23,717 bases of DNA. Origin: a virus. Made by a program: the position numbers and the translations under genes. Below the pieces are notes generated by a model that had not been told where the DNA came from, made no database searches, and was given only the letters and a program-made list of their open reading frames with translations. The stretch spans positions 1-23,717 of IMG/VR virus record IMGVR_UViG_3300002460_000162; one strand, 5' to 3'. This document shows, one piece after another, positions 6,418 through 20,466 of the stretch (the first letter of the stretch is position 1; each line of letters begins with the position of its first letter).

Positions 6418-7220
6418 GGGACCGTGATTACCTGTTCGCTGGCAACGCCATCAGCGAGGTGAAGGCCAAAATCCACAACCAGATCGTCGATCACTACAAC
6501 TGGATGGACGAGGCTCTGATCAATGCTCTGAATGACGGCAAAGACCCGATGGCGGTGACGCGCCTTTGGGGGCGCAATATCCGCGCACTTGGCGAAATGG
6601 CTGGCGAACTGTTACCGGACAGGCCGTGGCACGCGGCAAAGATGCGCGAGTTGACCGGCAATGCGAAGAAAGTGCTGAGATGGAAGGCTAGCGCTCTTAA
6701 CTTTAACCCCGACAGTCCAAATCTCGATCTGGCGCTATCGGGGATGACGCCGTGGAACGATGGTGAAAAGTGGATGCTGGCCGTGGCATTGCCTGCGCCG
6801 GAGCCATTCTCGTTCGCACGAGAGCATGGTGGCCCCGATGGCATCATTCTGATCGATCCGAAGACCGGTGAGGCGTCTGTTCTGGGTGATTCTAACCCAG
6901 CGCTGATCCTGCCTATCGAGACAGATCACCTCACCGTCCACACCGACGCCAGGCTATGGGCGCGGGACTTCGCGACGGCCCGCGTCGAGTGGCTGTTCGG
7001 GAAGTTCAACGCCGAGCGCGTTGCCAACATCACGCCCAAATGGACAGGGATGCCCCCCGCAGCGCTGCTGATTGGCGACCCTATCAAGGTGGCGTGGCCT
7101 AGAGGTGCCAACATCACGGTTGGAGAAGGCGTGGACGCCAAGGCCATCCAGAAGGCGATCTACGCCCAGTCCAGAACCAGCCGGGTGCATCAGTCACAGA
7201 AAATAAAGAGGGTGGCATGA
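6414..7220 (+). CDS. Unknown replication-module protein (268 aa), GTG start
   Basis: The GTG start at 6414 overlaps the VRR-NUC stop (GTGA), the same linkage used throughout this operon. The protein begins VRDRDYLFAGNAISEVKAK. The N-terminal ~100 residues are helical; the middle has short strands (WMLAVALPAPEPFSF and GIILIDPKTGEASVLG). The C-terminus is basic (SRTSRVHQSQKIKRVA) and could contact DNA. No family is recognised. It lies between the nuclease and the VapE-like ATPase, and the module has no recognisable primase or polymerase, so a priming or loading role is possible but unproven. Confidence 0.7.
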   Translation: MRDRDYLFAGNAISEVKAKIHNQIVDHYNWMDEALINALNDGKDPMAVTRLWGRNIRALGEMAGELLPDRPWHAAKMRELTGNAKKVLRWKASALNFNPDSPNLDLALSGMTPWNDGEKWMLAVALPAPEPFSFAREHGGPDGIILIDPKTGEASVLGDSNPALILPIETDHLTVHTDARLWARDFATARVEWLFGKFNAERVANITPKWTGMPPAALLIGDPIKVAWPRGANITVGEGVDAKAIQKAIYAQSRTSRVHQSQKIKRVA

Positions 7221-8413
7221 TGAGCACCAATGTCGTCGATCTCAATGCATGGCGTCATAATCTCCAGATGGGAGACAAGGGGCCGAAGCGAAACCTGACG
7301 AATCTAATGGTTCACCTGCGTAATCTCCCCAGCCTCGGGAAGACGATCAAGCTCAACGAGATGACCGGCATAACCGAGTGGCGCGGAGATCCAATCACCG
7401 ACACCGATTATGTCGATATCCAGATGATCATCGAGCAGGCGAGTTTCCAGCCGAACAAGAATGACATCCCGATCGCTGTGGCACGCATCGCAAAGGACAA
7501 CGCTTATCATCCGGTGCGGGATTATCTCGACGGCTTGCAGTGGGACAATGTGACCCGACTGGACCAGTTTTTGCCCATCCTTTTTGGCACGCCAGACACG
7601 CCATATGAGCGAATGATCGGCGTGAAATGGATGATTGGCGCCGTCGCGCGTGTCTATCAGCCGGGCTGTAAAATGGACAATATGCTTGTCCTGGAAGGCC
7701 CGCAGAACATCGGCAAATCGTCGGCGCTCGCGGCATTGTTCGGCCGCCAGTTTTTCACCGAAATGGTGAACGAACTCCGCGACCACAAGAAATTCATGGA
7801 ACAGATCGCCGGTAAATGGGTGGTCGAATTTGCCGAACTATCGGCCATCCGCCGCGCTGATGTCGAACTGGTGAAGGCCATAATATCGATGCAGGTCGAT
7901 CGATCGAGGATGTCCTATGGCCGCAACCCGGTCGAGAATCCGCGCCAATGCGTTCTGGCCGCGTCGGTCAATCCAAAGCACGACAGCGGCTATCTTACGG
8001 ACCCGACCGGCAATCGCAGGTTCTGGCCGGTGAGATGCTCATCGATCGACATCGCCAGATTGATACGGAAGCGCGATGATCTTTGGGCTGAGGCCGTCGT
8101 CAGATACCGCTCCGGCGAGAAATGGTGGCTGGATGACGACGAGGCGGGCGTGGCTGGAGGAGAGCAGTCCGAGCGCATGGCCGTCGACCCTTGGGCGGAT
8201 GTGCTTTCCGCCAAACTGGTCGCTGGGTACTCTTATACCTCAGTCGCTATTTTGACCGAAATGATCAAGGTTCCAACTGACCGCCTTGACCAGTTCCAGA
8301 AGACCCGCCTCGCTGATGTGATGACGTTTTTGGGGTGGAAACAGCATGTCGCGAAGCGCCGTGGCGACGGCGGAAACAGGGTCAGTGTTCGCGAGTGGAG
8401 AATGTCGGAATGA
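7217..8413 (+). CDS. VapE/VirE-family P-loop ATPase (probable replicative helicase)
   Basis: The 398-residue protein matches the virulence-associated E family: YLDGLQWDNVTRLDQFLP (103-120), Walker A GPQNIGKS (161-168), Walker B WVVEFAEL (201-208), the RMSYGR region (231-236) and the sensor-like TGNRRFWPV (264-272). In phages and satellites these SF3-like ATPases commonly act with a primase as replicative helicases. The usual N-terminal primase or Toprim domain is absent, so priming must come from another protein. Two start codons (7217, 7220) overlap the preceding stop. The iteron region begins 20 bases after the stop, which fits an initiator or helicase role at an adjacent origin. Confidence 0.88.
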   Translation: MMSTNVVDLNAWRHNLQMGDKGPKRNLTNLMVHLRNLPSLGKTIKLNEMTGITEWRGDPITDTDYVDIQMIIEQASFQPNKNDIPIAVARIAKDNAYHPVRDYLDGLQWDNVTRLDQFLPILFGTPDTPYERMIGVKWMIGAVARVYQPGCKMDNMLVLEGPQNIGKSSALAALFGRQFFTEMVNELRDHKKFMEQIAGKWVVEFAELSAIRRADVELVKAIISMQVDRSRMSYGRNPVENPRQCVLAASVNPKHDSGYLTDPTGNRRFWPVRCSSIDIARLIRKRDDLWAEAVVRYRSGEKWWLDDDEAGVAGGEQSERMAVDPWADVLSAKLVAGYSYTSVAILTEMIKVPTDRLDQFQKTRLADVMTFLGWKQHVAKRRGDGGNRVSVREWRMSE

Positions 8414-8700
8414 CGGTTTTTGCGATGAACCGATGTCTACACCATTTCGTCGCATTTTTGCGATTTGGCACTTACCTGTCTACGGGTTTTAGGCGAATTG
8501 TCTACGCCATTTTCCACACTGGCGTAGACACAAAAAAGCAAGCATTCCCAGCATCTTGCCCCGCTGTCTACACTGTCTACACTCTAAAAGACTATATAAA
8601 TAAAAGGGTGATTTTAAGGGCTCTAAGGGGATGGGTGTGGTCAGGTGTAGTCACCCGTAGACAGGGGTGGTCTATGCGCACGGAATATGGTGCAAAATGA
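8410..8700 (+). CDS. Questionable small ORF across the iteron region (96 aa)
   Basis: For: the frame starts with ATGA overlapping the VapE stop, has GGAG 9 bases upstream, and ends in a TGA that again overlaps the next start as ATGA, just like the real genes around it. Against: the iterons dictate much of its protein sequence (for example VYTVYT), its third codon positions lack the strong G/C preference of its neighbours, and the DNA carries inverted repeats and an AT-rich tract typical of an origin. It may be a non-coding bridge with an accidental frame, or a coupled small peptide spanning the origin. Confidence 0.3.
   Translation: MTVFAMNRCLHHFVAFLRFGTYLSTGFRRIVYAIFHTGVDTKKQAFPASCPAVYTVYTLKDYINKRVILRALRGWVWSGVVTRRQGWSMRTEYGAK
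8499..8530. repeat. Perfect 10-base inverted repeat around a DnaA-box-like site
   Basis: TGTCTACGCC (8499-8508) and GGCGTAGACA (8521-8530) are perfect inverted copies separated by 12 bases. There is no T-run after either side, so it does not look like an intrinsic terminator. Confidence 0.8.
8565..8582. repeat. Tandem direct repeat of the iteron TGTCTACAC
   Basis: Two abutting copies of the 9-mer TGTCTACAC (8565-8573 and 8574-8582) stand directly before an AT-rich tract. The same 9-mer occurs once more at 8434-8442. Abutting iterons next to an AT-rich segment are typical of initiator-binding sites. Confidence 0.85.
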
Positions 8701-8861
8701 CCCTCCCCCTCACCGACTACATCACCGCCCTGATGCGCCAACCACGAGAAAAGCTCGCACGCATCAATCCCGACAAGGCGGCGGCCCATTACGGCATCAG
8801 GCCGGACGTCGCGGAATATTATCTCAGGCAGGAACACATGCGCAGGAGGGCAGCACGATGA
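8697..8861 (+). CDS. Small hypothetical protein (54 aa)
   Basis: ATG 8697 gives a 54-residue, mostly helical, basic protein (MTLPLTDYITALMRQPREKL at the start, ending in MRRRAAR). The segment AAAHYGIRPDVAEYYLRQE may be a short helix-turn-helix. It overlaps the next gene as ATGA (8858-8861), which supports a real coding unit. A longer frame from 8667 is possible but has no better ribosome site. Adjacent to the candidate origin, it could be an accessory DNA-binding peptide. Function unknown. Confidence 0.6.
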   Translation: MTLPLTDYITALMRQPREKLARINPDKAAAHYGIRPDVAEYYLRQEHMRRRAAR

Positions 8862-9373
8862 ACGCATTACAGACGATCGAACCAGATCAGGTTTTTGAGG
8901 GATGGGTCGAGGCCGGCCGATCACTGGCCAATCAACGCCGCAACGTCGACTGGCAGATCGGCGACTGGATGGTCGAAGGCCGGGAGAAAGGATTCCTCAG
9001 TCAAGCCGGGTTCGATTTCCTATCCGAAAATCTCGGCATGACCCCAAAACGCCTGAAGGATATTGCTCGCGCCGCCGAAGCATTTCCCGCCCATATGCGC
9101 GACGCAAGCCTGAGCATTGACCACCACGCCAGCGTTGCCGACATCGAACCGCAACTTCGCATCGATTTTCTGTCACGCGCCAAGCAGGAGCACTGGACGC
9201 CTGAGCAGGTCAGGCATGAGGCGCACCATGCATCCGAACCACGCCAACTCAATCGCGGCCATGATGCCATGCTCGAAAGTTTCATCCGCCACTGGAACCG
9301 ACTTCCGCGTCCGGCCAGGCTTGAAGCCGCCGAAATGATCGCGCAAAGCCATGGGGACGAGATAGAGCCATGA
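8858..9373 (+). CDS. ParB/LmbU-like DNA-binding protein (171 aa)
   Basis: The pattern IGDWMVEGREKGFLSQAGFD, then LGMTPKRLKDIARAAEAFP, then SIDHHASVADIEPQ and WTPEQVRHEA follows the layout seen in LmbU-like and plasmid partition-related proteins: IGDWL..G, a helix-turn-helix with 'TL.....ARRF', 'LS..HH..VA.L.P', and 'W....LR.E'. This makes a DNA-binding helix-turn-helix protein likely. It lies directly after the iteron region and could bind it, or could regulate the late genes that follow. The start overlaps the previous gene as ATGA. The assignment rests on pattern memory. Confidence 0.6.
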   Translation: MNALQTIEPDQVFEGWVEAGRSLANQRRNVDWQIGDWMVEGREKGFLSQAGFDFLSENLGMTPKRLKDIARAAEAFPAHMRDASLSIDHHASVADIEPQLRIDFLSRAKQEHWTPEQVRHEAHHASEPRQLNRGHDAMLESFIRHWNRLPRPARLEAAEMIAQSHGDEIEP

Positions 9374-9410
9374 ATTTTACGATCTCAGCCACGTACAGAG
9401 ACAAAATGGC

Positions 9411-9418
9411 GTCCGTAG
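9411..9418 (+). repeat. Recurrent intergenic motif GTCCGTAG, copy 1
   Basis: The first of four exact copies lies in the 100-base gap between the last replication-side gene (stop 9373) and the first late gene (start 9474). A GATAAT at 9439-9444, 20 bases downstream, could be a -10 element. Its role is unknown; it may mark a late promoter or a module boundary. Confidence 0.5.
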
Positions 9419-9473
9419 GTATCGGAGGGCCAAGAGTTGATAATTGCGCTCTATGGGGCTCAGGAGGGCAAAT

Positions 9474-9692
9474 ATGAGCATAACGGTTTATTGCCGTCCG
9501 TACGAACCAGCGCCCGAGGGGTTCGCGTCACGCTTCGTCAAGGATGGATGGCGCGGCATCGAACGCTATTACGGCGCTCGTACCGACATCATGCTCCGGT
9601 GGCTCAACGAATGCGACAAGGAGCGTCTACGTACCCTGCGCCGCCGTTACATGCGGGGGGATGTGACGGCTTTGGAGGAGGTTTCGCCATGA
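9474..9692 (+). CDS. Small hypothetical protein upstream of the terminase (72 aa)
   Basis: ATG 9474 has a near-perfect AGGAGGG ribosome site (9462-9468) at 5-base spacing, the strongest in the window. The product (MSITVYCRPYEPAPEGFASR at the start) is rich in Arg, Tyr and Trp, with a basic helical C-terminus (LRTLRRRYMRGD). It ends in an ATGA overlap with the small terminase. It could be a packaging accessory or an HNH-less remnant, but no motif supports a specific function. Confidence 0.65.
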   Translation: MSITVYCRPYEPAPEGFASRFVKDGWRGIERYYGARTDIMLRWLNECDKERLRTLRRRYMRGDVTALEEVSP

Positions 9693-10201
9693 CGCCAAAG
9701 CAAGAGGCGTTCGTCCGCGAATACCTGATAGACCTGAATGCGACGGCCGCAGCACGCCGTGCTGGATACAGCCAGAAAAACGCTGATCGCATCGGCCCAG
9801 AGTTGCTTGGGAAAACTTGTGTAGCAGCCGCTATCGAAAAGGCTTTGGCCAAGCGCGCCGAACGCGCCGAAATAGATGCTGCCTATGTGCTGAAGCGTCT
9901 TGTTGAAATCGACGATATGGATGTGCTCGACATCATGGGCGAGGACATGACCCTGAAGCCTATTTCACAGTGGCCTTCGGTTTGGCGTCGATATCTCTCA
10001 GGCTTCGACGTTGCGGAGATGTTCAAGGGCCGTGGCGATGATCGTCAGATTGTCGGCATCCTGAAAAAGATCAAATGGCCGGATAAGGTCAGGAACCTCG
10101 AATTGCTCGGCAAACATGTCGGCGTGCAAGCATTCCGCGATCAGGTCGCGCAAACCGGCACGATCAATATCAACATCGGCTCGGAGGATGCGGAACTCTG
10201 A
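9689..10201 (+). CDS. terS: Terminase small subunit
   Basis: The N-terminus MTPKQEAFVREYLIDLNATA followed by AARRAGYS is the typical Terminase_2 (PF03592) beginning, with a helix-turn-helix that recognises phage DNA at the packaging start. The 170 residues are a usual length. The C-terminal part (residues ~100-150) also fits, ending in WPDKVRNLELLGKHVG, the common oligomerisation/end segment. The start at 9689 overlaps the previous stop as ATGA. It initiates DNA packaging with the large subunit just downstream. Confidence 0.9.
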   Translation: MTPKQEAFVREYLIDLNATAAARRAGYSQKNADRIGPELLGKTCVAAAIEKALAKRAERAEIDAAYVLKRLVEIDDMDVLDIMGEDMTLKPISQWPSVWRRYLSGFDVAEMFKGRGDDRQIVGILKKIKWPDKVRNLELLGKHVGVQAFRDQVAQTGTININIGSEDAEL

Positions 10202-11526
10202 CCGCCGTCCTCACCCCAAAACAACGCGAAGCAAACCGCCTCCTCGCCAGCCCCGCCCGCAACATCATGCTCCGGGGCGGTTCGCGTTCCGGCAAGACGT
10301 TTCTCCTGTGCCGGGCGATCGTGCAAAGGGCGATAAATGCGCCGAATAGCCGCCATGTCATCTTCCGTTTCAGGTTCAACCACGCGAAGACATCGATCTG
10401 GGCCGACACACTGCCCAAGGTCATCAAGCTATGCTTCCCGACGTTGCGGGTGCGGTTCGACAAGACGGATTTCTACGCTGAACTGCCCAACGGTTCGCAA
10501 ATCTGGATAGCCGGCCTCGACGACAAGGATCGCGTCGAGAAGATACTCGGATCTGAGTACGCCACCGTCTATTTCAACGAATCCTCGCAAATCCCGTGGG
10601 GGTCGATCGAGACCGCCATGTCTCGCCTTGCCCAGAAGTGCGCGCTGGCACCCGAGATAGCCAAGGCAACAGGGCGGACGGCACTCGCGCTCAAGGCATA
10701 TTTCGACTGCAATCCACCCTCAAAGCTCCACTGGTCCTATCAGCTTTTCCGGCAGAAACTGAAGCCAGGCACGAAAGAGGCGCTGGCCAACCCTGACGAT
10801 TACGCCGAGATGAAGGTCAACCCCGAGGACAACCGCGAGAACCTGCCGGAAGAATATTTCGACGTGCTCGACACCATGTCCACCGCCAAGCGCCTGCGGT
10901 TCAAGGAGGGCGAATGGGCGAGCGAGGTCAACAGCGCGCTCTGGACGATGGAGGACCGTTCCGCGCACGATGGCAAGCCTATCCCCGGCATCGACACAAC
11001 CCGCGTTGCCGAGCATCCGAAACTTCGCCGTATCGTCGTCGCGGTCGATCCATCCGGAACCAAGGGCGATGACACAGGCGATGACATCGGCATTGTCGTG
11101 GCCGGTGTAGGCATTGATGGGCGCGGCTATGTGCTGGAAGACGCCACCTGCCAGTTGAGCCCGGAAGGATGGGCGCGCCGGGTGATCGAGATGTACCGCC
11201 GATGGAACGCAGACAGGATCATCGCCGAACGCAATTATGGTGGCGCTATGGTCGCGGCCGTCATCAAGGCCGCCGACCGCTCAGCGTCGTACAAGGAGGT
11301 CGTGGCAAGCCGTGGCAAGGTCGTTCGCGCCGAACCGATTGCAGCGCTCTACGAACAGGCGAAGGTCAGCCACTGTGGCCATTTCCCGGATTTGGAGGAT
11401 CAGATGTGCAACATGACGGCTTCGGGCTACGTCGGTGAAGGCTCCCCCGACCGCGCCGATGCTCTGGTCTGGGCGCTGACGGAATTGATGCTCGATGGCG
11501 CTCGCCCATGGACCGACGCGCTTTAG
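10198..11526 (+). CDS. terL: Terminase large subunit, probable CTG start
   Basis: The packaging motor ATPase and nuclease has Walker A GGSRSGKT (residues 27-34 with the CTG start), Walker B/catalytic Glu in TVYFNE (E128), and RNase H-like nuclease acidic residues D284 (AVDPSG), D315 (LEDAT) and D421 (RADAL). The first ATG (10267) would put Walker A four residues from the N-terminus and drop a typical lead segment (LTPKQREANRLLASP). CTG 10198 restores it, overlaps the small-subunit stop as CTGA, and has GGAGG 10 bases upstream. No ATG, GTG or TTG is available nearby in frame. Length 442 aa is normal. Confidence 0.9.
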   Translation: MTAVLTPKQREANRLLASPARNIMLRGGSRSGKTFLLCRAIVQRAINAPNSRHVIFRFRFNHAKTSIWADTLPKVIKLCFPTLRVRFDKTDFYAELPNGSQIWIAGLDDKDRVEKILGSEYATVYFNESSQIPWGSIETAMSRLAQKCALAPEIAKATGRTALALKAYFDCNPPSKLHWSYQLFRQKLKPGTKEALANPDDYAEMKVNPEDNRENLPEEYFDVLDTMSTAKRLRFKEGEWASEVNSALWTMEDRSAHDGKPIPGIDTTRVAEHPKLRRIVVAVDPSGTKGDDTGDDIGIVVAGVGIDGRGYVLEDATCQLSPEGWARRVIEMYRRWNADRIIAERNYGGAMVAAVIKAADRSASYKEVVASRGKVVRAEPIAALYEQAKVSHCGHFPDLEDQMCNMTASGYVGEGSPDRADALVWALTELMLDGARPWTDAL

Positions 11527-11529
11527 CCC

Positions 11530-11537
11530 GTCCGTAG
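11530..11537 (+). repeat. Recurrent intergenic motif GTCCGTAG, copy 2
   Basis: An exact copy lies 3 bases after the large-terminase stop, in the 45-base gap before the portal gene. Confidence 0.5.
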
Positions 11538-11571
11538 CTTTCGCGCGCGCCAACAAGGCACCGTCCGCCCC

Positions 11572-13503
11572 ATGGTCACCATCCTAGACGCACGCGGAAA
11601 TCCCATCGCGCCAAGGTCCAACGTCGTGCGTATGCACCGCGATGGACTCGCCAATCTCGTCAGTGGCGCTGGGACATCGCGAGACCGCAGCATCTTCGAT
11701 CTGTGGTCGTTCATGGCGATGGATCAGCAGCAGCTAATGGCCGCCTATCGATCCAACTGGCTCGTTGGCAAGATCGTCGACATTCCGGCCGAAGACATGG
11801 TGCGCGAGTGGCGCAACTGGCAGGCCGAGAAAGACCAGATCGAGAAACTGGAGGAAGCCGAGCGCAAATTCGGCATCGTTGGCAAGGTTCAGTCCGCGCT
11901 CGCATTGTCGCGGCTGTGTGGTGGCGCCGCGATCCTGCTCGGTTTTGGCGATGTCAATCCGTCCATGCCGCGCCCTTCCAGTATCGGCCTCGACGCGCTC
12001 AAATACGTTCATGTTTTCAACCGTTTCGAACTGAGCCTTGGGGAGAAAAACAAGGACATTACGTCGCCATGGTACGGACATCCCCAATATTTCCGCATCG
12101 CCAGCGATTATCAGTCCGTCCCCATCCATCCATCGCGCATGGTCGTATTCCCCGGCGCGCCGGTCCCGAACATGGGCATGACGACATGGGAGGATCAGTT
12201 CTGGGGCGACAGCGTGATCCAGCGCGTCGACCGCGCCGTCAAAAACGCGGTCAAGGCCAACGACGGGTTCGCGCGCCTGATTGACGAAGCCAAGATCGAT
12301 GTCTACCGCATGGCAGGCTTCATGGAGCAATTGGCGGCGAATGAGGCCACCGTCCGCCAGCGCGTCGAATATACCGACGCGGGCAAATCTTCCCTGCGCG
12401 GGGTATTTCTCGACAAGGATGACGAGTTCATCCAGCGCCAGCTTACCCTGACCGGAATGCCGGAAATGATCGAGTGCCTGATGGCGGTCGTGGCCGGCGC
12501 CGCCGATATCCCAGCGACACGCCTGCTCGGTCGCGCCCCGCAGGGCATGAACGCCACTGGAGAGGGTGACGAGAAAAACTACCACACGATGATCCGGTCG
12601 AAGCAGCGGCTTTACCTCGCGCCGACCATCGATCGCATCGACGATGTGCTGATCCCGTCCGTTCTGGGCACTGATCCCGCCAGCATCAGCTACGTCTGGA
12701 ACTCGCTGGCGATCATATCCGACAAGGAGCGCGCCGAGATCGAGAACATGGAGGCGGATACCGTCTCGAAGATCGTATCGACCGGCCTCGTGCCCGATCC
12801 CGCGCTGTCAAAGGCTGTGCAGAACCGCATGATCGAATCGCAACGCTGGCCCGGCCTTGAACAAGCGATTGAGGAACTTCCGGACATGTCGTTTGATCCG
12901 GGCTCCGAAGACCCATCGGCTTTGACGCAACCGAACGGAAAGGAGGTTGATCCAACATCTCCCACGGCGCAGGGGCCGAGCGGAAGTCCGGCCCCTGCAC
13001 GTGCGGCGAATGACGCGTGGCTTGCCGATGCATCACCTCGCCCGCTTTACGTTCAGCGCAAGATCTTGAACGCCGCCGATCTGGTTGATTGGGCAAAGGC
13101 GAATGGCTTTGCGTCGACACTGGCGGCAACCGACATGCATGTGACGGTGCTGTACTCTCGCGCCCCGGTCGATCCGATGAAGATGGGCCGTGACTGGTCA
13201 GAGGACGAGAAAGGCCGGATTATCGTTCGACCAGGTGGCCCACGTGCCATAGAGCGCTTGGGCGAAAACGCCGTCGTGTTGCGCTTTGTCGCGCCGTCAC
13301 TCGAATATCGCCACCGCGATCTGATCGAGGCGGGCGGAAGTCATGACTATGACGAATATCGGCCCCATGTAACGCTGAGCTATACCGTTCCCGATGATGT
13401 TGATCTGGACGCAATCAAGCCATTCAACGGCGAACTCGTGTTCGGCCCGGAGATTTTTGAACCCTTGGATCTGGACTGGAAGGTGAAGGTCTCGGAGGAG
13501 TAG
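11572..13503 (+). CDS. Portal protein fused to an Acb1 anti-CBASS domain
   Basis: Residues ~40-440 are a DUF1073-type portal, the dodecameric ring through which DNA enters the head (AMDQQQLMAAYRSNWLVGKI and RLLGRAPQGMNATGEGD regions). A Ser/Pro/Gly linker follows (~443-485). Residues ~489-643 match Acb1, the 2H phosphodiesterase that cleaves cyclic nucleotide signals of bacterial CBASS immunity: LYVQRKILNAADLVDWAKANG (493 on) and the paired catalytic motifs H523-V-T525 and H599-V-T601, 76 residues apart. Both H-x-T motifs are intact. ATG 11572 lacks a strong ribosome site. The gene follows the terminase, the usual portal position. The fold is confident; the anti-defence activity is inferred from the family. 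Confidence 0.88.
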   Translation: MVTILDARGNPIAPRSNVVRMHRDGLANLVSGAGTSRDRSIFDLWSFMAMDQQQLMAAYRSNWLVGKIVDIPAEDMVREWRNWQAEKDQIEKLEEAERKFGIVGKVQSALALSRLCGGAAILLGFGDVNPSMPRPSSIGLDALKYVHVFNRFELSLGEKNKDITSPWYGHPQYFRIASDYQSVPIHPSRMVVFPGAPVPNMGMTTWEDQFWGDSVIQRVDRAVKNAVKANDGFARLIDEAKIDVYRMAGFMEQLAANEATVRQRVEYTDAGKSSLRGVFLDKDDEFIQRQLTLTGMPEMIECLMAVVAGAADIPATRLLGRAPQGMNATGEGDEKNYHTMIRSKQRLYLAPTIDRIDDVLIPSVLGTDPASISYVWNSLAIISDKERAEIENMEADTVSKIVSTGLVPDPALSKAVQNRMIESQRWPGLEQAIEELPDMSFDPGSEDPSALTQPNGKEVDPTSPTAQGPSGSPAPARAANDAWLADASPRPLYVQRKILNAADLVDWAKANGFASTLAATDMHVTVLYSRAPVDPMKMGRDWSEDEKGRIIVRPGGPRAIERLGENAVVLRFVAPSLEYRHRDLIEAGGSHDYDEYRPHVTLSYTVPDDVDLDAIKPFNGELVFGPEIFEPLDLDWKVKVSEE

Positions 13504-13506
13504 GCC

Positions 13507-14319
13507 GTGCCCATCGACCTCGCCACACTCGCACGCGCGAAAGGCATAAAAAGGGCGGTTACCCTCCGCCCGATCAACCCGACGCAGGCGCAGGCGCAGG
13601 AACTCGCCGCCATTCTCGTGCAGGTGACGAACGTCTGGAAAAGCTGGCTACCTGCCATCCTTGCCGGGTACGATCCGAAACCGCTCGGCGATGCGATGCT
13701 CACAGACACCGCCGACGCCATGCGTGGGGCCATCGAAACGGCGAACAGCGAGATTTCCCGACTGGTCATCCCGATCACGGCGCAATTGCGCAACTGGTCG
13801 GCGAAGATCGAGAAGTGGCATCGCGGCAAGTGGATCGACGCCGTCAACACCGCAACGAATGTCGATCTGTCCAATGTGTTGACGGCGATGCCGGTTCAGG
13901 AGACGCTCGGCTCGTGGCTTGAGCGCAATGTCGCTTTGGTCCGCGATGTCTCGGATCAGACGCGCGGGCGAATTTCGGACATCGTGTTCCGCGAGTATCA
14001 GAACCGCACACCCATCCGTGAAGTCGCCAAGCAACTGAACGAGGCTGCGGCGTTGGGCCGGAAGCGCGCGATACGGATAGCCGCCGATCAATCGTCGAAG
14101 CTGTCGGCGCAACTCGACATGGAGCGGCAGGCCGAGGCTGCGATTGAGCAATATCGCTGGCGTCATAGTGGAAAAGCGCATCCACGGCTCGAGCATCAGG
14201 CGCGCAACGGGAAGTTGTTCAAGCTGGGTGAGCCGTCAGGAGACACGCCAGGGCAGGCGCCGTACTGCGGTTGCCGCGCTCAAGCCTACCTCCCCCTTAT
14301 GGATGAATTTGGGCTTTAG
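13507..14319 (+). CDS. MuF-like head morphogenesis protein
   Basis: The 270-residue protein has the C-terminal phage Mu F-like (PF04233) signature: WRHSGKAHPRLEHQARNGK, then GDTPGQAPYCGCRAQAYL near the end. These proteins are minor head components, injected or bound at the portal. The N-terminal ~190 residues are helical (EISRLVIPITAQLRNWSAK). GTG 13507 starts 3 bases after the portal stop and uses GGAGGAG from the end of that gene. Gene order terminase, portal, MuF, protease, capsid is the standard head module. Confidence 0.85.
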   Translation: MPIDLATLARAKGIKRAVTLRPINPTQAQAQELAAILVQVTNVWKSWLPAILAGYDPKPLGDAMLTDTADAMRGAIETANSEISRLVIPITAQLRNWSAKIEKWHRGKWIDAVNTATNVDLSNVLTAMPVQETLGSWLERNVALVRDVSDQTRGRISDIVFREYQNRTPIREVAKQLNEAAALGRKRAIRIAADQSSKLSAQLDMERQAEAAIEQYRWRHSGKAHPRLEHQARNGKLFKLGEPSGDTPGQAPYCGCRAQAYLPLMDEFGL

Positions 14320-14350
14320 GAAGCACAGGTTTCTGTGTTAAGCACCCATC

Positions 14351-14725
14351 ATGATGATCCTCACTCTGACTGCCCTTACCGCGTCAGTTCAGCCTCCTGC
14401 TGACAGATCATATATTCTCGTCGATACAGAGCGACCGGCGCAGGAAATTGCGCAATGTGTTGCTGGTTATTGGGACGAAGGAGGTAGGTCCGACGTTGGT
14501 GTGACGGCCTATGGCTTTAAGGTCGATTTTCGCTTCGGCAATTTCGGAGGTGCCGTCAAAGACCCTACCGTTTCCATGGAAATTCATGCCACAGAAGGTG
14601 GTAATTCGCTGCTGATGTACGGATTCGGTACATGGCGCGGCGCAATCAAGAATTTGTGGAAGCAGACAGCGAAGCGCTGTTATCCCGAACTGTTCAAAGT
14701 CAGTGTGGTTAAGGCGCTACCATGA
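14351..14725 (+). CDS. Small exported or envelope protein, probable moron (124 aa)
   Basis: The protein begins MMILTLTALTASVQPPADRS, a short hydrophobic N-terminus that could be a weak signal peptide. The mature part is strand-rich (DVGVTAYGFKVDFRFGNFGG) with Cys residues in AQCVAGYW and KRCYPEL. It interrupts the fixed order MuF-protease, has no strong ribosome site, is visibly less GC-rich than its neighbours, and is followed by GTCCGTAG. These are features of a moron: a gene inserted between structural genes, often expressed in the lysogen. ATG 14354 is an alternative start. No family is recognised. Confidence 0.6.
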   Translation: MMILTLTALTASVQPPADRSYILVDTERPAQEIAQCVAGYWDEGGRSDVGVTAYGFKVDFRFGNFGGAVKDPTVSMEIHATEGGNSLLMYGFGTWRGAIKNLWKQTAKRCYPELFKVSVVKALP

Positions 14726-14761
14726 CCCCGATTGGTGGGACATCACAGAGTTCGGATGACC

Positions 14762-14769
14762 GTCCGTAG
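14762..14769 (+). repeat. Recurrent intergenic motif GTCCGTAG, copy 3
   Basis: An exact copy lies in the 77-base gap between the moron-like gene and the protease. It abuts a hairpin-forming stretch. Confidence 0.5.
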
Positions 14770-14802
14770 AGCATAACCCCATGCTCGCGCCAAACATGGC
14801 GC
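14769..14802 (+). promoter_or_regulatory. Two hairpins immediately before the protease start
   Basis: GAGCAT (14769-14774) pairs with ATGCTC (14781-14786), and GCGCCA (14787-14792) pairs with TGGCGC (14797-14802). The second hairpin ends directly at the ATG of the protease gene (14803), where no ribosome site is visible. The structure may regulate or restrict translation, or mark an end of the upstream transcript. Confidence 0.4.
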
Positions 14803-15906
14803 ATGTATTTTGCCGACCGCCTCACTCTGGACGCACCGCGCCGCACCAAGGATGGCTTTCTTGCCGTTCGCGCCAAGGCTGCGCGGCTCGGCGTCTATGA
14901 CTATGCAGGCAGCGAGGTAGACCCCGAGAACAAGCACGGCCTGCGCGATCAGGCGACGGTCAAGGTGCTGCGCGACGAAAATACCGTTTTCGACGAGCGC
15001 GCGGTCAAGAGCTTCATCGGTAAACCGATCACCGACAATCATCCCAGTCAAGCCGTCACCGCCGACAACTGGCGGCAGCACGCGCGCGGCACCGTCATGG
15101 GGGCAATGCGCGACGGCGATTATCTCGCCTTCGACCTGATGGTCACGGATGCTGAGGCAATCAGCAAGATCGAAGCGGGCAAGCGCGAATTGTCCAACGG
15201 ATACGCCGCCGATCTCGAGTTCGGCTTGTTCACCGCCGCCGATGGCACCGTGTGCCCGGTTCGGCAGGCCAGCATTTCCGGCAACCATGTCGCTTTGGTC
15301 GATCATGGCCGCGCCGGTTCCAATTGCGCGATCAAGGATGGCGAGAAATTCGCCATTTGCGACGCAAACCCCGCCGCGATGTCGGCGTTCAATATGGAGA
15401 AGAAAGTGCCAAAGATCACGCTTGACGGCCTTGTGGTCGATCTGTCGGACGCGGCTGCCGTCGAAGCCGCGATCAAAAAGTTTCAGGACGCCGCGACGGC
15501 CGCTCAGAAAACCCTCGCCGACGCAAAGGCCGCCCACGACAAGGAGATGGCCGCGAAGGACGCAGAGATCGACAAGCTGAAAGGCCAGGTGGTCGATCAG
15601 GCGAAGATCGACGCGCTCGCCGACGCCAAGGCAACCGTCGTCGCCGATGCAAAGAAGATCGCTGGGGACAAGCTCGGCGACACCGCCGGCAAGACCGTCG
15701 CGGACGTTCGCCGCATGGCTGTTGCGGCCAAGCTCGGCGACGCTGCGGTTGCGGATAAGTCCGACGACTACATCGAGGCGCGTTTCGACGGGCTCAAGGA
15801 TGGCGGCACGAGCGACCCCATCGCGCAAAACCTGCGGGATCAGCGGCATTCCACCACGAACGACAACGCTAGCGTGCGCGATTTCGTCCGCGCTGCTCAG
15901 TATTAA
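14803..15906 (+). CDS. DUF2213 prohead protease with scaffold-like C-terminus
   Basis: Residues 1-185 are a DUF2213-type protease: FIGKPITDNHPSQAVTADNW with His80, KRELSNGYAADLEF with Ser131, and the end motif NHVALVDHGRAGSN. Residues ~213-310 are Ala/Lys/Asp-rich and predicted coiled coil (AAIKKFQDAATAAQKTLADA), like a capsid scaffold. This is therefore a protease-scaffold fusion that would guide capsid assembly and then cleave it. An internal ATG at 15394 (MEKKVPKITLDG) could in principle yield a separate scaffold, but it has no ribosome site. The cement and capsid genes follow. Confidence 0.85.
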   Translation: MYFADRLTLDAPRRTKDGFLAVRAKAARLGVYDYAGSEVDPENKHGLRDQATVKVLRDENTVFDERAVKSFIGKPITDNHPSQAVTADNWRQHARGTVMGAMRDGDYLAFDLMVTDAEAISKIEAGKRELSNGYAADLEFGLFTAADGTVCPVRQASISGNHVALVDHGRAGSNCAIKDGEKFAICDANPAAMSAFNMEKKVPKITLDGLVVDLSDAAAVEAAIKKFQDAATAAQKTLADAKAAHDKEMAAKDAEIDKLKGQVVDQAKIDALADAKATVVADAKKIAGDKLGDTAGKTVADVRRMAVAAKLGDAAVADKSDDYIEARFDGLKDGGTSDPIAQNLRDQRHSTTNDNASVRDFVRAAQY

Positions 15907-15917
15907 GGGAGGCGATA

Positions 15918-16631
15918 ATGGCTGAACTTCAGACCACCTATTCCAACACGATCGCCGCCGCTTATGCAGGCATGATCGCCAATGGTGAAACGGGCAACCG
16001 CATCACCCGCACATGTGAAACCGCTGCCGGGATCGGCTTCGGTAAGGCCGTGTATCGCGGCGCGAACGATCACGGATGCCTCCTTGCGCAGACGCTGGCA
16101 GGCGCGGGTTCGGAGGCCGCTGGCAACGTCGGCACCGGCACGATTACCGCTACGCCGACGATTTCGGCTGGCGCAAAGATCGGGCGCTACACCGTCACCC
16201 TGCTCGCTACTTCGGCGACCGGCGCTTTCAATGTCACCGATCCCGATGGCATCGTTATCGGCACAGGCAAGATTGCCACGGCATTCAGTGCTGGTGGTGT
16301 CGCCTTCACCTGGGCGAACGGCGACACGATGACGATTGGCGATCAGGCCTATGTCGACGTCACCGGCAACGCCTTCCTCGGCATCTCCATTGCCACGTCG
16401 GGTCAGCAGATTCTCACCGGGCAGGATGCTGACGAATATCAGCAGTATGACAACGTGCCGATCCTGACTTCTGGGGCCATATGGGTGACCGCTGGCGGTA
16501 CGGTAACGGATGGCGCCGCCGTCCATGTCGCTGCCGATGGCGATTTCGATACCAGCGGCATCCCGCTGCCCGGCTGGGTTTTTGATACGAGCGGGGCTGA
16601 TACGAACCTTGTCAAGATCGTGAAGCGCTGA
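15918..16631 (+). CDS. Head cement/decoration protein (structural, 237 aa)
   Basis: ATG 15918 has GGGAGG upstream. The protein is Gly/Ala/Thr-rich and strand-dominated. The middle (TPTISAGAKIGRYTVTLLAT onward) resembles a decoration domain that recurs in phage head proteins, and its position between protease and major capsid fits a cement protein of the gp24/DUF2190-like type. It would bind the capsid surface and stabilise the expanded shell. The family call is from pattern and position. Confidence 0.75.
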   Translation: MAELQTTYSNTIAAAYAGMIANGETGNRITRTCETAAGIGFGKAVYRGANDHGCLLAQTLAGAGSEAAGNVGTGTITATPTISAGAKIGRYTVTLLATSATGAFNVTDPDGIVIGTGKIATAFSAGGVAFTWANGDTMTIGDQAYVDVTGNAFLGISIATSGQQILTGQDADEYQQYDNVPILTSGAIWVTAGGTVTDGAAVHVAADGDFDTSGIPLPGWVFDTSGADTNLVKIVKR

Positions 16632-16644
16632 GGAGACGACAAAA

Positions 16645-17742
16645 ATGAACGCGATCACTCATAATTTCTTCGACAGCGCTTCGGGTCGCATCACCGATCC
16701 TGTCGCATTCATGGCCGCCCCGGCGGATGTGAAGGCCCATGTCATGCGGGTGTGGGCTGCGGACAACGCCCGCACCGCCGCGACGTTTGCAGACAAGGTT
16801 GACGCATTCCTGAGCGACTCTCAGGTTGGTTACGCCTTCCTGACGCCGCAGCTCTACCGCATCGAAACTGAGGTCTATATGACCCGGTATCCCAGCTTCG
16901 ACATCAGCCGTTTCATGACGGTCGATACCTCGGGTGATATGTGGGACGTGGGCACCCTGGTCTATTCGATGGATCAGGTTGGACAGGCTGAGTTTCTGTC
17001 CGGCGCATCCTTCGATATGCCTTATGCATCCGCCAAGATGGCGCAGGCCACGCATAACTTTCACCTCGCTGCCGTTGGCTATGAGTGGAACACGCAGGAA
17101 TTGCAGCGCGCCGCCAAGTTGGGACGTTCGCTCTCGAACGACAAGGCGATGGCTGCCAAACAGGCGGCCGATCGCTTCATCTACCAGATCGCGATGGACG
17201 GCAAGACGCCGACCGCCGTGGCCGAAAAGGGTTGGACCGGGTTCATCAACAACGGGTCGGCGCCTTCCGCGCAGGTTGCAGCCGATGGCACCGCGTCATC
17301 GCGGCTGTGGTCGGCAAAAACGGCGGACCTCATCCTGCGCGATATTAACGAGGCGCTGACGACGGTCGAAACCGGCACTGGCGAAACGCATGTGGCAAAT
17401 ACTCTGGTCCTGCCTACCACGAGCTACAACTACATCGCCACTCAGCGCATCGGCGACACCAACGCGACGATCCTGTCCTTCCTGCTGGCGAACAACGTGG
17501 CTGGTGAAGGTCTGACGATCCTCAAGAGCCGCGCGCTGGAAACCGCTGGCACCGGATCGTCCACACGCATGGTCGCCTATGACAACAACAGCCAGGTGCT
17601 GAAGTTCCACTTGCCCGGTGCGCATCAGTTCCTGCCGCCGTTCCAGAAGTCGAGCATGACCTATGAAGTCGGTGGGATCATGAACGTCGGCGGGCTGGAA
17701 ATCCGGCTTCCCAAGGCAATTGTCTACCGGGACAGCTTCTGA
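16645..17742 (+). CDS. Major capsid protein (DUF2184-like)
   Basis: The 365-residue protein matches the DUF2184 major capsid group: FLTPQLYRIETEVYMTRYP, then ALGRSLSNDKAMAAKQAADR-type helices (here KLGRSLSNDKAMAAKQAA), TLVLPTTSYNYIAT, and the end PPFQKSSMTYEVGGIMNVGG. An HK97-like fold is expected for the family. ATG 16645 has GGAG upstream. It follows the protease and cement genes. No N-terminal scaffold is seen in it, which fits the scaffold-like part on the protease. Confidence 0.88.
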   Translation: MNAITHNFFDSASGRITDPVAFMAAPADVKAHVMRVWAADNARTAATFADKVDAFLSDSQVGYAFLTPQLYRIETEVYMTRYPSFDISRFMTVDTSGDMWDVGTLVYSMDQVGQAEFLSGASFDMPYASAKMAQATHNFHLAAVGYEWNTQELQRAAKLGRSLSNDKAMAAKQAADRFIYQIAMDGKTPTAVAEKGWTGFINNGSAPSAQVAADGTASSRLWSAKTADLILRDINEALTTVETGTGETHVANTLVLPTTSYNYIATQRIGDTNATILSFLLANNVAGEGLTILKSRALETAGTGSSTRMVAYDNNSQVLKFHLPGAHQFLPPFQKSSMTYEVGGIMNVGGLEIRLPKAIVYRDSF

Positions 17743-17912
17743 TGGCTAAGGCCAAGGTCAGGAACATCTCGACCGGCCCACGCGGCGCATATCTCGATGG
17801 TGTGCTCGTGTGGGCCGCGCCGGGCGAAGAAATCGAGGCGGACGACTTCTCGGAAGAGTGGTTCGAAAAGATCGCGGCAAAAGCGGTAAAGTCTGCGGAC
17901 AAAGAGGGCTGA
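17742..17912 (+). CDS. Small structural-module protein (56 aa)
   Basis: ATG 17742 overlaps the capsid stop by one base (TGATG). The product begins MAKAKVRNISTGPRGAYLDG and ends in acidic and Lys-rich helices (DDFSEEWFEKIAAKAVKSAD). Such short 'RNIS.GPRG..' proteins are common after phage capsid genes and may be head-completion or decoration peptides. The next gene starts 3 bases after its stop. Confidence 0.75.
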   Translation: MAKAKVRNISTGPRGAYLDGVLVWAAPGEEIEADDFSEEWFEKIAAKAVKSADKEG

Positions 17913-17915
17913 TAA

Positions 17916-18353
17916 ATGGTCGCGTTCACCAAGCTGAATGGTTTTGTCGAGGATCTCGCCGAAAAGGTCCACAACCTCGGCAGCGATCAACTCGTCATCG
18001 CCCTTTCGAACACGGCGCCCGGCTCGGAGACCACGCCTCCGACCGGCGCAACCGGCACCAATATCCTCGCGAACATCACGCAGATCAGCTACACCAACTG
18101 CTCGACCCGCAATATCACGACGTCATCGAGCGCGCAGTCGGCTGGCACCTATACGCTGGCGCTGACTGATTTGGTTCTGACGGCGAGCGGTGGCACGGTC
18201 GGGGCATTCCGCTACGTCTACATCTACAACGACACGCCCACGTCGCCCGCCGATCCGCTGATCGGGTATTGGGATTACGGATCGTCGATCACGCTCAATA
18301 GTGGTGAGACGCTGACAATCGACTTCGCCGCTGGCACCATGACGCTTGCTTGA
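17916..18353 (+). CDS. Structural protein, unknown (145 aa)
   Basis: GAGGG precedes ATG 17916. The protein starts MVAFTKLNGFVEDLAEKVHN, then is Thr/Ser/Gly-rich with strands (FRYVYIYNDTPTSPADPLIG, then YWDYGSSITLNSGETLTIDF). This resembles small strand-rich head or tail-fibre-like proteins that follow the capsid gene in many alphaproteobacterial phages. Position suggests a head-decoration role. No family is recognised with certainty. Confidence 0.7.
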   Translation: MVAFTKLNGFVEDLAEKVHNLGSDQLVIALSNTAPGSETTPPTGATGTNILANITQISYTNCSTRNITTSSSAQSAGTYTLALTDLVLTASGGTVGAFRYVYIYNDTPTSPADPLIGYWDYGSSITLNSGETLTIDFAAGTMTLA

Positions 18354-18363
18354 GGGACGAACG

Positions 18364-18630
18364 ATGAAATTCACGACTGAAGCAATCCAGAAGCGCATGG
18401 ATGAGCTGGGCGAACAGCGCGTGCCGCTATCGGATCAGCGCGATGCGTTGTGGGCCGAGCTGAGCGCGCTGAGCGCTGGCGATACCGAACTGTCGGTCAA
18501 GGATGCCCGCGCGCGCGAATCGACCATCCGCGACGAGATCAAGGCCTTGAATGCCAAACTGGCGCCGATCGATGACGAGCGAGCAAATTGCGCGCGTGCG
18601 TTGGGAGCCAAGCGCCTGCTCGCTGAATGA
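18364..18630 (+). CDS. Small coiled-coil protein (88 aa)
   Basis: GAGGGACGAACG precedes ATG 18364. Nearly the whole 88-residue protein is a charged helix with heptad-like spacing (EAIQKRMDELGEQRVPLSDQ, then ARESTIRDEIKALNAKLAP). It probably forms a helical hairpin or coiled coil. It lies between two strand-rich structural genes. Function unknown. Confidence 0.7.
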   Translation: MKFTTEAIQKRMDELGEQRVPLSDQRDALWAELSALSAGDTELSVKDARARESTIRDEIKALNAKLAPIDDERANCARALGAKRLLAE

Positions 18631-18648
18631 CGCTAAGGGTGTAGCAAT

Positions 18649-20466
18649 ATGGGCGCTCCTGTCGGAAACGGCTTGCTGGTCGATTCATCGGCCAGTCAAT
18701 CGACCTATACCGACGCCAATGGCGGCAGCGCTTATACGGTCGGTTCGGGATCAAATCGCGCCGTTATTATTTCGGTGTGCGGCTATCTGGACTCCGGCTC
18801 CGGCACGCCCGGCGCATCGGCAATGGTGTTCGGCACGCACAGTATTGCGAACGGCCAGATTGTTGCGCTGGGGTCTTACACCCGCAATGGCGCGAGCTGG
18901 GTTCAAAATTTCGTTGTCGTCAATCCAACGGCGGGTTCCTCAAGTTTCTCCATAACCTGCACCAACCTGCACCGCGCGATGGTGGTTCGGGTTGCCGAAT
19001 ATAACGACATCGATCAGACCACGCCGGTCGGGTCGAACATCGGCACGTACAACAACGCATCCTCGGCTACCGCCACCGGCACGCTGACGACGACGGCTGA
19101 CGACAGCACAATTCATTTTGCGGTCTGCCACGAGGCGGATTTCGGCACCGTGACTGCTGGCGACGGCGGAACGCTGATCGGCAGCACCGCCACTGGCACG
19201 CTTGGCACGAACGACTGTACCGGCGCGACCAGTTACGAGGTGATTTCGGGGGCTTCCGGAGCTTCGGTCAGCACGTCAATCAGCGGCACGGACACGGACA
19301 ACACGGTTGGGCAACTGATCGAGTTGATTCCGGCGTCATCGGGCTACACCCTCACGGCCGATGCATCCTCCTACAGCTTCACTCCGGCGGCGGCCGGAGT
19401 TCTGGCGTCGCGGTCACTGTCTGCGGGTGCTGCGTCATTCTCGTTCGGCGTTGCCGATGCCGGGCTTTCCGTCAGCCGCACGATCACCGCTGCGGCAGGA
19501 TCATTCGCGTTGACCGGCGCGGATGCTGGTTTTTCAGCAAGCAGGACGCTCACAGCGGATGTTGCGTCGTTTTCGTTTGCCGGTGCAGACGCCACAATTT
19601 CCTATGGCCTGATAATGTCGGCGGGGGTCGCGTCCTATTCGGTCTCATGGGCTGATGCCAGCGCGCTATATGGTCGCGTTCTGACCGCTGGGGCGGGTTC
19701 ATACACATTCACGGCCGCCGATGCTGCGATAGCCGGTTCTGCGGCGTTTACTGCCGACGCGGCGTCCTTCGCGCTGACATTGGCCGATGCGTCTTTCCTG
19801 CGCGGCAATATCCTTGTCAGCGAGGCGGCGTCCTATTCACTTGCCGTCGCCGATGCATCGTTCGCGCTTGGGCTGGGTATGACCGCTGGCGCCGCCTCCT
19901 ACACACTGACCGGCGGTGGCGTAACATTCCTGCGCGGTCTGGTTATGCCCACTGAGGTCGCGTCCTATACGTTCACTGGCGCGGATGTCGTGTTCAGCGG
20001 CGATCAGTTCATGACCGCCGAAGCCGCGTCGTTCAGTCTCGCGGTGGCCGACGCTGGCTTTGCGCGCAGCATGTCGATGGCGTCCGATGCCGGGGCGTTC
20101 GCGTTCACGGGATCTGCGGCCGCTATGACCCTGAGCCGCATCATCCCAGCCAGCGCCGCCTCGTTCAGCCTCGCCATTGCTGATGCCGGGTTGAACTATG
20201 GGCACAGGATGCAGGCGGATTCGGTCGGCTATACGCTCACCGCTGGCGACGTGACGTTCTATCGCGACCTTTCGCTTGTGGCGGGCGTGGGGTCATTCAT
20301 AGCGACCATCGGCGATGCTGCGCTCGCCTATTCGGGCGCCATCACCTATGCGGTTCCGTCGATCCGCAACGTCGACAGCATCGCCGGGCCGCGCGCCGCT
20401 GTGTCGATCTCGTTCGCACGCGATGCGGCGTCGATGTCGGTATCGAGGTCGGTTTCAAGTTCATAG
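18649..20466 (+). CDS. Large repeat-containing virion protein (605 aa)
   Basis: Residues 1-234 are strand-rich (GLLVDSSASQSTYTDANGGS, NRAVIISVCGYLDSGSG) and resemble an Ig- or jelly-roll-like phage domain. Residues 235-564 are exactly fifteen units of 22 residues, with consensus roughly [LM]TA-x-A-[AG]-S-[FY]-x-[LF]-T-x-A-D-A-x-x. Each unit is 66 bases. The last 41 residues are non-repetitive. Such regular Ala/Ser/aromatic units probably form a stacked beta structure, suggesting a surface fibre or decoration that contacts the cell or capsid. AAGGG precedes ATG 18649. No enzyme motif is visible. Confidence 0.78.
   Translation: MGAPVGNGLLVDSSASQSTYTDANGGSAYTVGSGSNRAVIISVCGYLDSGSGTPGASAMVFGTHSIANGQIVALGSYTRNGASWVQNFVVVNPTAGSSSFSITCTNLHRAMVVRVAEYNDIDQTTPVGSNIGTYNNASSATATGTLTTTADDSTIHFAVCHEADFGTVTAGDGGTLIGSTATGTLGTNDCTGATSYEVISGASGASVSTSISGTDTDNTVGQLIELIPASSGYTLTADASSYSFTPAAAGVLASRSLSAGAASFSFGVADAGLSVSRTITAAAGSFALTGADAGFSASRTLTADVASFSFAGADATISYGLIMSAGVASYSVSWADASALYGRVLTAGAGSYTFTAADAAIAGSAAFTADAASFALTLADASFLRGNILVSEAASYSLAVADASFALGLGMTAGAASYTLTGGGVTFLRGLVMPTEVASYTFTGADVVFSGDQFMTAEAASFSLAVADAGFARSMSMASDAGAFAFTGSAAAMTLSRIIPASAASFSLAIADAGLNYGHRMQADSVGYTLTAGDVTFYRDLSLVAGVGSFIATIGDAALAYSGAITYAVPSIRNVDSIAGPRAAVSISFARDAASMSVSRSVSSS
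19351..20340 (+). repeat. Fifteen in-frame 66-base (22-residue) repeats
   Basis: Starting at codon 235 of the gene above, fifteen units of 22 codons follow with no insertion or deletion. Conserved positions are a hydrophobic first residue, A-[AGS]-[SAG]-[FY] near positions 5-8, and A-D-A near positions 13-15. The nucleotide sequences have diverged, so this is an old expansion, not a recent slippage tract. Confidence 0.9.

Follow-up and report, generated by a model that had tools for sequence, protein, structure and literature searches.

All free Acb1 homologues that have been assayed cleave 3'3'-cGAMP and cAAA, and the roles of individual residues in T4 Acb1, including its contacts with cGAMP, have been described (PMC9117128). 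Fusions of 2H domains to MuF or portal proteins were reported by Iyer et al. in 2017 (PMC5512222), who proposed that such domains are RNases or degraders of immune nucleotides, and a survey published in 2022 (PMC9503650) proposed that they are packaged and injected to act against SMODS, cyclic-nucleotide and CRISPR signalling. An anti-defence function on a head protein is also found in P1 DarA, an internal capsid protein that is ejected along with the DNA, and in other ejected head-internal anti-restriction proteins (PMC12810830). The locus analysed here shares with the 2017 and 2022 portal fusions both the architecture and the proposed purpose, namely packaging in the head and countering nucleotide-based immunity, and the novelty that the preliminary description had presumed for a portal–Acb1 fusion therefore has to be given up. 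Unlike the present analysis, the accessible sections of these two papers contain no residue-level Acb1 assignment, cassette exchange, DarA fusion or linker element. The open-licence literature yielded neither a paper in which Acb1 and DUF1073 are both named nor one describing a packaged Acb1, and a literature search found no assay of a portal-fused Acb1 copy. New in this work are the exchange of the domain as a cassette, its occurrence on further virion proteins, a reading of the Pam3 structure in which the domain is tethered or cleaved, and an anti-SD complement with a hairpin in the linker DNA.

The window, that is, the whole 23,717-nucleotide stretch analysed (IMG/VR record IMGVR_UViG_3300002460_000162), contains a single open reading frame of 643 codons (11572–13503, plus strand, as are the window features listed below) that encodes the 643-residue fusion protein. 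The portal core (11572–12801) matches the Phage_portal_3 (DUF1073) profile PF06381 over residues 54–399 (E 2.6e-99), belongs to PHROG 146 (portal) and to the TIGR01555 HI1409 family, and has the Pam3 portal (8hds) as its best Foldseek match. It is followed by a low-confidence linker (approximately residues 437–490; 12880–13041), which has a pLDDT of 35–43 over residues 441–480 in the full-length model and, in the linker alignment, a RAANDA-type motif at its end. The Acb1 domain occupies residues 491–638 (13042–13485). The preliminary description had given 12955–13503 for this domain; that stretch does contain it but begins within the linker. Upstream lies the terminase large subunit gene (10267–11526; PF17289, PF04466), and downstream are genes for a Mu F-like head morphogenesis protein (13507–14319; PF04233, E 1.9e-10), a DUF2213 protein annotated in relatives as head maturation protease (14803–15906; PF09979, E 1.1e-54) and the major capsid protein (16645–17742; PF09950, E 2.8e-80). 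The gene thus stands in a portal context within a normal head operon. Positions 7024–19500 of the window are identical to part of MGYJ01000080.1, a contig of a gammaproteobacterial metagenome-assembled genome, yet the majority of the named relatives are sphingomonad prophages, and the host is therefore uncertain.

The C-terminal domain matched the Acb1 family PF23474 over residues 491–638 with 134.5 bits against a Pfam cut-off of 27 (E 2.9e-39). In PHROG, the fusion protein was assigned to phrog_755, the T4-57B-type 'RNA ligase' family, in addition to the portal family phrog_146, and the domain sequence also matched solved Acb1 structures significantly. The domain model (pLDDT 85.5) had as its best structural matches the Acb1 of FBB1 (Z 16.8 and 15.8; cGAMP-bound in 7t27) and that of the Burkholderia phage BCSR5 (Z 14.4 and 13.2), and VIA-align superposed 134 residues on 7t27 with an rmsd of 1.9 at Z 16.8. 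Other 2H enzymes scored lower, with LigT at about 10.9 and the rest below. With Pfam, PHROG 755, the solved structures and the fold in agreement, the match to Acb1 is not a chance one, and the structure prediction called for in the preliminary description came out in favour of the Acb1 fold.

The fold, the HxT/HxT catalytic tetrad and most ligand residues are common to the T4 and FBB1 Acb1 proteins (PMC9117128; PDB 7t26, 7t27) and the window domain. H523/T525 and H599/T601 are the counterparts of T4 H44/T46 and H113/T115, and mapping through a T4-like 57B sequence placed Y493, Y593, E630 and W636 at T4 Y12, F107, E141 and W147, so that the window keeps eight of the nine positions that serve catalysis or ligand binding in T4, F107 as Tyr. 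E627 had been considered as the counterpart of E141, but the T4-like RB33 sequence ruled it out in favour of E630. The Acb1-family 2H domain with an intact tetrad, in frame with the portal, is thereby borne out by profile, fold and residue mapping alike, and the LYVQRKILN, DWAKANG and two HVT motifs lie where they had been placed. The window domain differs from T4 Acb1, a free-standing protein, in being fused to a portal and in lacking an aromatic equivalent of the fifth ligand residue, W74, for which reason its substrate specificity may differ. Among 77 non-redundant copies (less than 85% identity), H523 and H599 were conserved in 100%, T525 in 98.7% and T601, as T or S, in 97%; certain search patterns included the first HxT motif, which means that its conservation partly reflects selection by the search, and none included the second. 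Given the fold and the invariance of both catalytic histidines in these relatives, the domain would most probably be an active nuclease of the Acb1 type.

Relatives of the fusion protein were present in 1450 of 50,697 phage records, and only 33 matched over 80% of the length, among them phages of Synechococcus, Pseudomonas and Rhizobium as well as Pam3. The portal-core alignment (A1) was too divergent for scanning and a single-protein scan gave two relatives, so the survey rests mainly on searches seeded with the domain. In a sample of 298 Sphingomonadales genomes, PF23474 was found in six and PF06381 in eight. The results showed that the domain and the portal have different histories. The window and relative L007 share 33% identity in the portal core, 82% in the Acb1 domain and 41% in the next gene, and the domain was better conserved than the core in 341 of 351 pairs (61% vs 39%). 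In the core tree the window groups with L021 (99/100), whereas in the domain tree it groups with L007 and L014 (100/98) and the Acb1 domain of L021 groups with L110 (100/98). The portals of Rhodoplanes serenus and Sinorhizobium meliloti, related at 39–42% identity, end without an Acb1 domain. By these sequence comparisons, the Acb1 domain is an exchangeable cassette. The suggestion that fusion to an essential structural part would make the domain hard to lose fits poorly with portals that are close and lack it and with a domain history that departs from that of its portal. A broken prophage in Novosphingobium silvae (L155, 5650–6477) retains an open Acb1 end of the portal gene.

The Pam3 portal (8hds; ON014755) matches the window protein over its full length (residues 24–641) and carries an Acb1 domain at the equivalent place, with H-I-S as the second motif where the window has HVT. 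Its PDB entry contains a 621-residue sequence of the same architecture, of which 442 residues are modelled, and 8hds was not among the 50 best Foldseek matches listed for the domain model. From the modelled length and this missing match, the Acb1 part was taken to be absent from the deposited model. The domain in the Pam3 virion is thus flexibly tethered or removed by cleavage and not part of the ring, which makes it doubtful that it is fixed on the portal ring, as had been proposed.

The domain was also found on other proteins. It is fused to Portal_Mu (PF06074) in L061, L063, L065 and L173, to ChaB and a Peptidase_S78_2 prohead protease in L064, and to ART-PolyVal in L178, and it lies inside a 1600-residue NUDIX protein in L187. 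In a P1-like plasmid prophage of Pantoea (L196, 1877–5020; NZ_CP034366), the only plasmid record found with a protein of this type, it is joined to DarA_N/DarA_C, and the PHROG label of the product is 'released from the phage upon host infection'. This relative of DarA thus bears Acb1 itself. P1 DarA lines the capsid and exits with the DNA, whereas a portal normally stays. The fusion to several virion proteins would favour a virion-borne role for Acb1, and the data are consistent with fused Acb1 on virions and with late expression. Some of the Mu-type fusions (L061, L063, L065, L173) have additional residues C-terminal of Acb1. Free Acb1-like genes annotated as phage prohead protein or protease occur on Rhizobium/Agrobacterium plasmids (L193, L194, L195).

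Taken together, the domain identity, the fold, the invariant catalytic residues, the late-operon position, the cassette exchange and the repeated fusion to virion proteins are best explained by a tethered, catalytically competent Acb1-type 2H phosphodiesterase that is carried on the portal and acts against CBASS, a reading we regard as probable. A domain of this kind could instead act on RNA or 2',3'-cyclic phosphate ends, as an RNase or in RNA-end healing, and not on CBASS signals: LigT, Usb1 and CPDases also belong to the 2H superfamily (Z 9–11), a Usb1-like RNase was one of two options offered for 2H–portal fusions by Iyer et al. (PMC5512222), and T4 W74 is not retained. However, Acb1 structures fit far better (Z 13–17 vs at most 10.9 for other 2H enzymes) and Y493, Y593, E630 and the lid residue W636 match residues of T4 Acb1 that contact cGAMP (PMC9117128), and we consider action on RNA unlikely. 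It is far less probable still that the domain is a structural addition to the portal with no enzymatic role; its attachment to an essential structural protein at 144 of 156 loci under a strict test would suit such a role, but the catalytic histidines are invariant, related portals exist without the domain, the deposited Pam3 portal model does not include it and its tree conflicts with that of the portal.

With the anti-CBASS enzyme preferred, we infer from sequence that the domain would most likely cleave adenosine-containing cyclic di- and trinucleotides made by host CBASS. Because it would be made from the late head operon, the fusion protein should be on hand at the time when CBASS is normally triggered, and each portal could carry as many as twelve Acb1 copies. 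Portals are not normally ejected, so delivery would need cleavage of the linker, or else the enzyme would act within the producing cell; in the next host, Acb1 may act from the portal or once the linker has been cleaved. An enzyme active only late, in the producing cell, with carriage on the virion incidental, is a serious possibility to which we give somewhat less than even chances: T4 Acb1 activity appears at the onset of CBASS killing, late in infection (PMC9117128), and the fusion gene is located in the head operon, but Acb1 is also joined to polyvalent proteins and to a DarA-type protein, the P1 relative of which leaves the capsid with the DNA, and these fusions suggest delivery in at least some members. 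Should the domain be active on virion portals, phages could arrive or assemble with a ready CBASS antidote that is not a free protein, and the presence of Acb1 on several unrelated head proteins makes this hypothesis directly testable. On the host side, SMODS cyclases were found in 6 of 10 genomes carrying such prophages, and complete CBASS operons are present among these hosts, with Sphingobium scionense having a TRIP13–HORMA–HORMA–cyclase–NucC operon plus a cyclase with E1–E2. CBASS was in excess over the background of the order (4/13 vs 19/292, Fisher p 0.011, for small, differently sampled sets with genome size uncontrolled), a statistically weak association.

At 12940–12953 the linker DNA contains AAGGAGGTTGATCC, a version with one inserted nucleotide of the conserved AAGGAGGTGATCC, which is the complement of the 16S rRNA 3′ tail. 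Among 62 non-redundant fused relatives, 11 have it exactly and 24 with at most two mismatches, and the best match in real linkers had a mean of 3.05 mismatches compared with 4.57 in codon-shuffled linkers. The motif occurs in two reading frames among fused relatives, which implies that nucleotides and not a peptide are conserved, and 609 kb of sequence from these loci contained no further copies. A long form was found in 19 viral stretches, both in Acb1 portals and in portals without Acb1 (L214, L215, L223), as well as 3′ of the Phage_lysozyme2 domain in an unrelated gene that also has a tape-measure match (L213, L220, L221, L224); the exact long motif was absent from the 298 Sphingomonadales genomes. 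On the 3′ side of the anti-SD complement lies a hairpin (12969–12998) with a 10-bp stem, GCAGGGGCCG/CGGCCCCTGC, whose arms vary between members while complementarity is kept. The stretch after the motif alone folded at z −4.79 in the window, and the window element including flanks was only moderately more stable than its shuffles (z −1.62). Over 31 copies, which are related and not independent, the mean z was −2.17, with 28 below −1; adjacent control stretches in these genes gave −0.23 to 0.13. The shuffles preserved composition (element 70% GC vs 62–65%). The MAFFT alignment yielded no consensus pairs with RNAalifold and a model (R1) without pairs, probably because the hairpin arms are out of register, and the fold test was therefore made per sequence. 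Rfam gave no match to the element beyond a sub-threshold one, to CC2171 (20.1 bits vs 75).

Two candidate mechanisms at the linker were set aside. As an internal start for a free Acb1, the sole candidate in the scanned stretch of the window was a TTG without an SD-like sequence, and in the relatives there was an ATG in 29 of 62 and an ATG or GTG with an SD-like sequence in 17 of 62, with no common position in the examples shown. No classical slippery heptamer was seen by eye for a frameshift at the anti-SD complement, and since the motif contains TGA, the stops that often come early in the alternative frame (1–2 codons) are no independent evidence of frameshifting. We tentatively propose, at rather less than even odds, that the linker carries a new nucleotide-level element, composed of AAGGAGGTGATCC, a short spacer and a compensating hairpin, that is frame-independent, lies where domains meet in two virion genes unrelated to each other and would act on translation or as a DNA swap handle. 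Acting on translation, a candidate role would be pausing or recoding that sets the number of Acb1-bearing portals, or an effect on domain folding; the other candidate is a recombination handle for domain swapping. If functional, the element would be a new type of signal within virion genes. The RAANDA-type peptide before the domain (window, approximately 12997–13017) is conserved in many fused portals while its codons vary, and we take it to resemble the start of the tmRNA tag.
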